A DNA stretch of 64,000 bases from positions 96,828-160,827 of the forward strand of contig JAPLES010000009.1 of the NCBI GenBank assembly GCA_026391075.1, written 5' to 3'. Below, in pieces: positions 21,206-22,986 of this stretch (position 1 is the first letter of the stretch; each line of letters begins with the position of its first letter). The position numbers and the translations under genes were made by a program. Below the pieces are notes generated by a model. The model was not told where the DNA came from. It did no database searches and saw only the letters and a program-made list of their open reading frames with translations. The stretch is from Bacteroidota bacterium. Its GTDB lineage: Bacteria; Bacteroidota; Bacteroidia; Chitinophagales; LD1.

Positions 21206-21239
21206 TTTGTTGCTTATTTATTTATCGTATATTTGCGAT
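21206..21239 (+). promoter_or_regulatory. arsR promoter overlapped by an ArsR-type operator
   Basis: TTTG 21206-21209, an 18-base spacer and TATATTTG 21228-21235 form a good Bacteroidota promoter. The -7 box sits inside the interrupted palindrome ATCGTATATTTGCGAT (21224-21239), with ATCG/CGAT ends, typical of ArsR/SmtB operators. Repressor binding there would occlude RNA polymerase, so autoregulation by arsR is likely. Confidence 0.65.
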
Positions 21240-21251
21240 AACAAATGAACT

Positions 21252-21581
21252 ATGATAGACAAAAGAGAACTATTTAAGAAAGAAGAAACAGAGTTGGCTG
21301 AATTTGCGTGGGCTCTATCGCACCCGGCACGCCTTGCCATTTTAAAAATGCTGGCGGCTAAAAATCAGTGCGTTTGTGGCGAAATTGTAGAAGTACTGCC
21401 ACTGGCGCAGGCCACCGTATCGCAACATTTGAAGGAACTTAAAAAAGCCGGATTAATAAGTGGCACCGTTGTCGGAGCCAAATCGTGTTATTGTATTAAC
21501 TGGAAAAAATTGAACGCCTGTATAAAAGACATCAACAAACTTTTCTGCAACATGGAAAAAGCAAAAGCCAAGTGCTGCTGA
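21252..21581 (+). CDS. arsR: ArsR-family metalloid-responsive repressor
   Basis: A 109-residue winged-helix repressor: [17 protein letters not shown], then the recognition helix [19 protein letters not shown] and wing [14 protein letters not shown]. Cys40-Val-Cys42 (NQCVCGEIV) sits just before the DNA-binding helices, where As(III)-sensing ArsR proteins carry their CVC site. Further cysteines are 79, 81, 90, 99 and a C-terminal 108-109 pair, eight in all, so the sensing site may be extended. An operator overlaps its own promoter. The next gene is a Cys-rich micro-ORF 26 bases on, followed by aquaporin and arsC genes, which support arsenite as inducer. Confidence 0.9.
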
Positions 21582-21607
21582 TTATTTCTTCACTAAAACC
21601 AAGTATT

Positions 21608-21697
21608 ATGAAAACAGAAAACGAGGAGACCAAAACATGCTGCTGCAAATGCGAAACCTGCACTTGTGAGAACTGCACTTGCTGTAACTGCTGTTAA
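21608..21697 (+). CDS. 29-residue Cys-rich, metallothionein-like peptide
   Basis: A micro-ORF of 29 codons plus TAA. Residues 1-10 are hydrophilic (MKTENEETKT); residues 11-29 hold 11 cysteines, at positions 11, 12, 13, 15, 18, 20, 23, 25, 26, 28 and 29, with only Lys, Glu, Thr and Asn between them. CxC and CxxC spacings recur, as in metallothioneins. Only one stop-free frame gives this, and a strong terminator begins eight bases after its stop, so the frame is exactly bounded by arsR and the terminator. It should be co-transcribed with arsR. Inference: a soluble thiol chelator of As(III) or another soft metal, or a metallochaperone. No named family known to me matches it. Confidence 0.75.
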   Translation: MKTENEETKTCCCKCETCTCENCTCCNCC

Positions 21698-21704
21698 GCA
21701 AACG

Positions 21705-21737
21705 CCCCGATGAAATTCATCGGGGTTTTTATTTTTT
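21705..21737 (+). terminator. Rho-independent terminator after the Cys-rich peptide
   Basis: Perfect 10-base stem CCCCGATGAA / TTCATCGGGG with a one-base centre, followed by TTTTTATTTTTT. It ends the arsR-peptide transcript and separates it from the aquaporin gene. Confidence 0.9.
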
Positions 21738-21770
21738 AGAAGTTCCACTTCTTCAAGAAGTGGAACTTCT
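21738..21770. repeat. Perfect palindrome, 16-base arms
   Basis: AGAAGTTCCACTTCTT (21738-21753), one base, and its exact reverse complement (21755-21770). It directly follows the terminator T-run. It has no T-run of its own on the plus strand, so it is more likely a small mobile or repeated palindrome than a terminator. Confidence 0.85.
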
Positions 21771-21823
21771 GCTTTCTCAATTCATGATTTCCGTTACATT
21801 TATTTCAACAAAAAATATTCCAC

Positions 21824-22474
21824 ATGAAAAAATACACAGCAGAATTCATTGGCACTTTCATTTTAATTTTTGCAGGAACAGGATGCGTGGTCGTAAATGA
21901 ACAACTAGGCGGACATTTAGGTTTAACCGGCATTGCTATGGTTTGGGGCTTTGCCATTATTGCACTCATTTATGCCTTTGGCGATATTTCAGGAACGCAT
22001 TTGAACCCCGCAGTTACCGTTTCGTTTGCTGTAGATAAACGATTTGAATGGAAAGAAGTGCCTCCTTATTTAATAGCGCAATTCGCAGGAGCGTTAAGCG
22101 CGAGTTTACTATTGCATTTTCTTTTTCCTGAAAATAAAACGCTCGGTATTACGCAGCCATCGGGCAGCGAAACGCAGGCGTTTATAATGGAAGCGGTGAT
22201 GACTTTTATTTTAATGCTCGTGATTTTACGCGTGAGCGTGGGGGCTAAAGAAAAAGGAATTACTGCAGGTATTGCCATTGGCGGAACAGTTTGGGTTTTG
22301 GTTTTGTTTGGTGGACCGGTTTGTGGCACAGGATTAAATCCTACACGCTCTATAGCTCCCGCTATTGTAGCAGGAAACTTTCAATCGCTATGGTTATATA
22401 TCGTTGCTCCGTTTGCAGGAGCGTTAACGGCAGTGTTCGTGCATAAATTTTTGCATACGCCTGAGAATAATTAA
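21824..22474 (+). CDS. MIP-family channel, AqpS-like aquaglyceroporin
   Basis: A 216-residue major intrinsic protein with six helices. The first NPA box is canonical (GTHLNPAVTVSFA); the second reads GTGLNPTRSIAP, Thr replacing Ala. In helix 5, the residue aligned with the selectivity-filter His of water channels is Val (AIGGTVWVLVLF), which predicts a wider, less water-selective pore; Arg of the filter is kept. Placed between arsR and arsC without an Acr3 or ArsB pump, it matches the Sinorhizobium arsR-aqpS-arsC logic: arsenite made by ArsC leaves downhill through the channel. It could instead be a general polyol or water channel. The context is strong, the substrate inferred. Confidence 0.85.
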   Translation: MKKYTAEFIGTFILIFAGTGCVVVNEQLGGHLGLTGIAMVWGFAIIALIYAFGDISGTHLNPAVTVSFAVDKRFEWKEVPPYLIAQFAGALSASLLLHFLFPENKTLGITQPSGSETQAFIMEAVMTFILMLVILRVSVGAKEKGITAGIAIGGTVWVLVLFGGPVCGTGLNPTRSIAPAIVAGNFQSLWLYIVAPFAGALTAVFVHKFLHTPENN

Positions 22475-22484
22475 AAAAACATCC

Positions 22485-22553
22485 TTACACAAAGACGCAA
22501 AGACACTAAGGTTTAGCTAATGAAATTCTTTGCGCCTTCGCGCCTTGGTGTAA
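22485..22553. repeat. Inverted repeat with 8-bp internal period
   Basis: Arms 22485-22510 and 22528-22553 are reverse complements at 20 of 26 positions. The left arm is ACACAAAG, ACGCAAAG, ACACTAAG; the right arm is its complement-like series. It fills the gap between the aquaporin and arsC genes. ArsC could be on the same transcript. Confidence 0.8.
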
Positions 22554-22563
22554 ACTTTATTTT

Positions 22564-22986
22564 ATGAAAAACATTCTCGTTCTCTGCACAGGCAACTCCT
22601 GTCGAAGTCAAATAGCGCAAGCATATCTGCAAAAGTTTTGTGGCGATAAAGCACAAGTCTATAGCGCGGGAATTGAAACGCATGGCGTTAATCCACGCGC
22701 CATTGAAACCATGCGCGAAGACGGCATTGATATTTCGCACCACACGAGTAACCATATAGACGAATACACGCACCTTGTTTTCCATTTCATTATTACCGTT
22801 TGCGATAACGCTAAAGAAAACTGTCCTTACTTTCCCGGCAATGCCAAACGTTTTCATCATAATTTCACCGACCCTGCCAAAGCAAAAGGAAGCGAAGAAG
22901 AAATCAGGAATGCGTTTAGAAAAGTGAGAGAAGAAATAAGAGCGTATTGTGAGAATTGGGTGAAGGAAGAGTTGAAGTATGCATAG
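22564..22986 (+). CDS. arsC: Arsenate reductase, thioredoxin-coupled LMW-phosphatase type
   Basis: A 140-residue enzyme reducing arsenate to arsenite. The P-loop CTGNSCRSQIA (Cys8-x5-Arg14) opens the protein; Cys8 attacks arsenate. A second pair lies in VCDNAKENCPYFPG (about residues 80 and 87), the redox cysteines of the Staphylococcus pI258-type enzyme that pass the disulfide to thioredoxin. FTDPAKAKGSEEEIRNAFRKVREEI follows, as in the family. No export pump gene follows; the arsenite presumably exits by the adjacent channel. Its downstream neighbour is convergent, four bases away. Confidence 0.93.
   Translation: MKNILVLCTGNSCRSQIAQAYLQKFCGDKAQVYSAGIETHGVNPRAIETMREDGIDISHHTSNHIDEYTHLVFHFIITVCDNAKENCPYFPGNAKRFHHNFTDPAKAKGSEEEIRNAFRKVREEIRAYCENWVKEELKYA

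Follow-up and report, generated by a model that had tools for sequence, protein, structure and literature searches.

The 29-codon open reading frame (ORF) found between an arsR repressor gene and an intrinsic terminator is, judging from its conservation and sequence context, very probably a real, unannotated gene. The best explanation for it, to which we assign a probability of roughly 0.55, is that it encodes a cytosolic metallothionein-like thiol buffer for arsenite, As(III), co-induced with ArsR. The features of the window (the whole 64 kb stretch of DNA that was analysed) and of the loci compared with it are listed in Table 1.

The predicted product, MKTENEETKTCCCKCETCTCENCTCCNCC, carries eleven cysteines among its 29 residues, all of them within the last 19, arranged as CCC, CxC, CxxC and CC (the longest run of Cys codons being three) and separated only by K, E, T and N. 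A 29-residue frame with these cysteines and polar spacers had been pointed out in the initial annotation and was confirmed here at the same position. Besides its polar linkers, the peptide shows a flexible acidic N-terminus, contains neither histidine nor aromatic residues, and is devoid of any hydrophobic or structured segment suited to protein contact. The ORF starts 26 nt downstream of arsR and its stop codon lies 6 nt ahead of the terminator stem. Its cysteine density is far above chance expectation in the 64 kb window: 30 dinucleotide shuffles of the window gave at most seven Cys per 19 residues, and the second-densest stretch in the real sequence has six.

Table 1. Location of the genes and regulatory elements discussed in the text and of the comparison loci
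Feature	Location	Strand	Description and basis
Bacteroidota promoter of arsR	21206..21235	+	TTTG-N18-TATATTTG; 10/10 matches to TTTG/TAnnTTTG
Putative ArsR operator	21222..21241	+	TTATCGTATATTTGCGATAA; inverted repeat overlapping the -7 element; repeat match, conservation in G017
arsR	21252..21581	+	ArsR/SmtB-family repressor, CVC motif, terminal KCC; PF01022 50.9 bits, NF033788 66.4 bits, both above cut-off
Translation initiation region	21594..21607	+	A at -3, -6, -12, -13; determinants from PMC6847099
Cys-rich 29-codon gene	21608..21697	+	ATG to TAA; product MKTENEETKTCCCKCETCTCENCTCCNCC; orthologue G017:C21:6938-7027
Intrinsic terminator	21704..21738	+	10-bp stem (21704-21726, 6 GC pairs), then T tract TTTTATTTTT
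Possible weak promoter of the aquaporin gene	21773..21802	+	TTTC-N18-TACATTTA; 8/10 matches, which occur 5.6 per kb and are hence weak evidence; identical in G017
MIP-family channel (aquaporin, aqp)	21824..22474	+	PF00230 179 bits; TIGR00861 above cut-off
arsC	22564..22986	+	Thioredoxin-type arsenate reductase; best model TIGR02691 156 bits, below cut-off 174
14-Cys peptide upstream of SigZ-like sigma factors	L058-L061, L069-L071, L073, L078-L081, L083, L084, L088-L090, L092-L094, L098, L099, L102, L105, L107, L111, L117, L126, L127, L135-L139, L148		
arsR, DUF6428-like gene, arsC, acr3, 14-Cys peptide, sigZ	L060:322-3673; L061:307-3685		One run, one strand

Conservation and coding evidence

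An orthologue of the peptide gene, encoding MKTENEETATCCRCKCETCNCENCTCCNCC, was identified in a congeneric genome (G017, contig C21, 6938-7027), where the gene order arsR-ORF-terminator-aquaporin is identical to that of the window. All eleven cysteines, the ATG and the TAA are kept in this orthologue, and the sole indel is the insertion of one whole codon. The two ORFs differ by nine substitutions, six synonymous and three non-synonymous, an excess of synonymous change for which neutral simulations gave P values of 0.0005-0.014 (transition biases 1 to 8); four of the other five frames showed no such excess, and the remaining one, an antisense frame, showed a weaker excess (P 0.026). The resulting dN/dS of about 0.06 (dN 0.042, dS 0.69), an estimate from one sequence pair consisting of the window and its sole orthologue, is close to the values of arsR (dN 0.039, dS 1.13, dN/dS 0.035) and aqp (dN 0.021, dS 0.50, dN/dS 0.04). 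The adenines ahead of the start codon are the same in both genomes, and adenines at these four positions promote initiation in Flavobacterium johnsoniae (PMC6847099). Because the frame and its cysteines are conserved, synonymous change is in excess, the indel is in frame and the start region is of the Bacteroidota type, we read the ORF as a coding gene; its translation, predicted from the conservation and the start region, is very likely. The proposal of an overlooked coding gene made in the initial annotation is thereby well supported, and the comparison with a close relative that it called for revealed an intact frame and conserved cysteines together with excess synonymous change. Cys-rich genes too short for gene callers can go unnoticed beside metal regulators. 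A 41-aa extension of the ORF from a GTG start was also considered and rejected, as it is not conserved: in the congeneric genome a stop codon behind arsR interrupts that frame, whereas the ATG corresponding to 21608 is kept.

Family searches and distribution

The peptide matched no family in Pfam or NCBIfam at E up to 1, metallothionein and ArsD models included, and no chain among the PDB sequences at E up to 10. No named arsR-linked Cys-rich peptide was found in literature searches either.

Direct protein and profile searches covering 30 genomes from the family and 398 from the order identified the congeneric copy as the only other convincing one, the ORF being absent from 28 other family genomes and from the remainder of the 398 genomes sampled from the order. 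A search of genome contigs with the two-sequence alignment (window and congeneric genome) gave no matches, and the weak matches obtained at class level (L029-L035) were discarded, since they were not near arsR and lay mostly inside unrelated ORFs. At the 53 other arsR loci inspected, which come from the family, the order and two additional genomes, arsR is never followed by a Cys-rich ORF; these arsR genes are mostly followed by arsM, and also by a gene that we take to be DUF6428-like, by arsC or by others. Of the earlier reading, the unannotated coding gene and the lack of a named family (supported by the Pfam and NCBIfam searches) stand, and of the roles it put forward the arsenite-binding metallothionein is the one that we favour as a proposal; the search that it recommended for short Cys-rich ORFs at this position in other Bacteroidota yielded none at these 53 loci. 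The gene is lineage-restricted as far as sampled. It is absent from most sampled genomes and is therefore dispensable for ars function in general.

The ars cluster and its predicted regulation

ArsR carries the motif NQCVCGEIV and its C-terminal end is KCC; the CVC arrangement is typical of As(III) sensors. The perfect form of the operator, TTATCG-N8-CGATAA, has a single occurrence in the whole genome, which is the site upstream of arsR, and this site is unchanged in the congeneric genome, although the kup-arsR intergenic region around it is only 51% identical. The promoter matches in full the consensus reported for Bacteroidota (PMC6847099). Because this promoter is set within the only perfect operator and a terminator lies behind the ORF, arsR and the ORF probably form one ArsR-controlled transcript that ends at the terminator; the layout, with operator and promoter ahead of arsR and terminator behind the ORF, appears to fit ArsR/SmtB-type control. 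The terminator stem is 100% conserved in the congeneric genome, with a T tract that is 3 nt shorter there. The aquaporin gene and arsC are located behind this terminator on the same strand as arsR, and have no ArsR operator of their own. No Rfam RNA was found in the region.

Two further elements were observed downstream. A second, near-perfect hairpin (21738..21770, + strand) follows the terminator and precedes the aquaporin gene, with no T tract behind it; in the congeneric genome it has undergone one C-to-T change, the stem being preserved via a G-U pair. The aqp-arsC intergenic region (22475-22563) is 94% identical between the two genomes, compared to 86-90% for the flanking genes, and because this identity exceeds that of both neighbours, the presence of a regulatory element is suggested.

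ArsB was not found in the genome (98% complete), and the best match to Acr3 scored 44.9 bits, below the cut-off of 282.8. For these reasons the cluster is classed as aquaporin-only, relying on the aquaporin and ArsC without recognisable ArsB or Acr3, and the aquaporin is likely to be the exit channel for As(III). MIP channels are known to serve ars operons as sole transporters, the model being AqpS of Sinorhizobium meliloti (PMC4435449). The window shares with AqpS and other MIP-bearing ars operons the combination of arsR, a MIP channel and arsC in the absence of ArsB and Acr3 (PMC4435449), but unlike in those operons, arsR is separated from the channel gene by a Cys-rich peptide gene and a terminator. 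As a unit, the cluster was not found on any known plasmid.

Proposed role as an As(III) buffer

As(III) that enters the cell, or that arises from arsenate via ArsC, would release ArsR from its operator, and arsR and the peptide gene would then be cotranscribed as far as the terminator. The eleven thiols of the peptide, in CxC, CxxC and CC spacings, may bind As(III), an ion that is typically held by three thiols, and the bound As(III) would be buffered until its exit through the aquaporin. Such a buffer would also restrict the amount of As(III) available to sustain ArsR induction. As(III) moves only downhill through a MIP channel, and a thiol buffer is therefore plausible in this setting. If As(III) is indeed the ligand, the ars operon would contain its own genetically encoded arsenite buffer, the peptide would be one of the smallest metallothionein-like proteins known, and its presence would help to explain how an operon without a recognisable pump copes with the As(III) generated by its own reductase.

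Metallothioneins under the control of ArsR/SmtB-type repressors are well established, as in SmtB/SmtA of Synechococcus and BxmR/BmtA of Oscillatoria (PMC8790569; also PMC12193353). The window resembles these systems in having a small Cys-rich peptide gene beside, and apparently under, a repressor of the ArsR/SmtB family (PMC8790569), and differs from both in its CVC-type repressor and in the aquaporin gene and arsC nearby. The CxC, CxxC and CC motifs in a small protein are those of bacterial metallothioneins of the SmtA/PmtA/MymT type. SmtA itself has 56 aa, eight Cys and two His ligands and binds Zn (PMC12193353), whereas the window peptide has 29 aa and eleven Cys, lacks SmtA-like His ligands and aromatic residues, and matches no metallothionein model. 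The repressor-metallothionein arrangement is thus known; an arsenic-type version with a peptide this short, and unrelated in sequence to the known ones, is new.

Alternative explanations

The main alternative, though an unlikely one, is that the ORF acts as a polycysteine leader, in which translation of the Cys codons would decide whether the polymerase passes the terminator and enters aqp-arsC. Once charged Cys-tRNA or free thiols drop under arsenite, ribosomes would slow down on the last Cys codons or at the stop and mask the 5' arm of the terminator, so that transcription goes on. The Cys codons immediately precede a strong terminator, with the stop just 6 nt away, and the genes behind it, on the same strand, have a weak promoter match alone and no ArsR operator. 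In addition, the terminator stem and the spacer are 100% conserved, compared to the synonymous changes within the ORF. Polycysteine short ORFs of mycobacteria act as cysteine-responsive attenuators (Canestrari et al. 2020, as cited in PMC9031893), and a Cys-codon-rich short ORF upstream of other genes, with a terminator between them, is found here as well; the window ORF departs from the mycobacterial cases in lying behind arsR, in not being leaderless and in having at most three Cys codons in a run. Its position away from the 5' end of the transcript also speaks against a leader, as does the conservation of nine of the first ten residues, since an attenuator has no need for N-terminal residues. 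Folding revealed no stable alternative structure: the 5' arm pairs partly with upstream sequence in truncated transcripts (0-0.65 per base), and the full fold consists of independent hairpins with no antiterminator. Direct blocking by the ribosome is compatible with these folds, which show no stable, mutually exclusive antiterminator. A combination of both roles, in which translation of the Cys codons or the capture of As(III) by the nascent peptide would set read-through on top of ArsR control, making the peptide sensor and buffer at once, we regard as improbable. It would amount to a metalloid-responsive polycysteine attenuator switching aqp and arsC according to thiol or As(III) status, of which no description was found in the searchable literature.

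The sequence by itself does not tell which metal is bound, and Zn, Cu or Cd might take the place of As(III); SmtA, for instance, binds Zn (PMC12193353). That the peptide serves such a metal, or thiol redox buffering, and is present in the arsR transcript by chance seems rather unlikely to us; a separate family of peptides with the same CxCxxCxCxxCxCC spacing (see below) is mostly tied to SigZ-like factors and not to ars genes, but both known copies of the window gene lie within the predicted ArsR-controlled transcript, and the CVC arrangement of the repressor points to As(III). It is quite doubtful that the peptide is a small partner of ArsR, i.e. an As(III) metallochaperone or a competitor tuning derepression. 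The ORF directly adjoins arsR on one predicted transcript, and a thiol peptide competing for As(III) would alter the response of ArsR; nevertheless, the peptide resembles neither ArsD nor any chaperone family in Pfam or NCBIfam (E up to 1) and offers no segment for protein contact. None of the findings speaks for a metallochaperone or for a regulator acting directly on ArsR. Finally, a chance, untranslated ORF is hardly credible: the ORF is very short and known from just two genomes, but the selection on its frame, the conserved cysteines, the whole-codon indel and the start context all argue against such an origin.

Cys-rich peptides linked to SigZ-like sigma factors

A search with the Cys spacing in Bacteroidota, and then in genome contigs, led to a separate family of 37 peptides of 36-43 aa with 14 Cys, nearly all of which carry the pattern CxCxxCxCxxCxCxxCx4CxCxxCxCxxCxCC and which have no match in Pfam, NCBIfam or PDB. 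At 31 loci a SigZ-like ECF sigma factor gene starts 7-263 nt downstream of the peptide, in Arenibacter, Maribacter, Salegentibacter, Aequorivita, Pedobacter, Echinicola and other Bacteroidota. All 31 SigZ-like factors checked contain CC[FL] near residue 92, a motif that may act as a thiol or metal switch in partnership with the 14-Cys peptide. In Zeaxanthinibacter and one relative, the peptide-sigma pair is located directly behind arsR, the DUF6428-like gene, arsC and acr3, which constitutes a direct link of the pair to arsenic genes.

The window peptide is similar to this family in its CxCxxCxCxxCxCC spacing (a strict spacing with a chance probability of 0.0008 when 11 Cys are distributed over 19 positions), its polar linkers and the lack of a family model, and the family differs in its length, in its 14 Cys and in adjoining an ECF sigma factor. 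Homology between the two is not claimed, because 103 of 500 self-shuffles of the window peptide score as high against the 14-Cys profile and because the family was found via that very spacing; moreover, no SigZ above cut-off was found in the window genome, and an aquaporin gene instead of SigZ lies downstream of the ORF. In viral contigs, the spacing pattern followed by a stop was represented, among the matches listed, by TGY microsatellites only. On a Lentisphaeria contig, a different Cys-rich peptide with an acidic N-terminus, CNCDCENCDCENCDCCDCSCC (L072:3781-3933, reverse strand), is encoded 50 nt upstream of a sigma factor that is 29% identical to SigZ.
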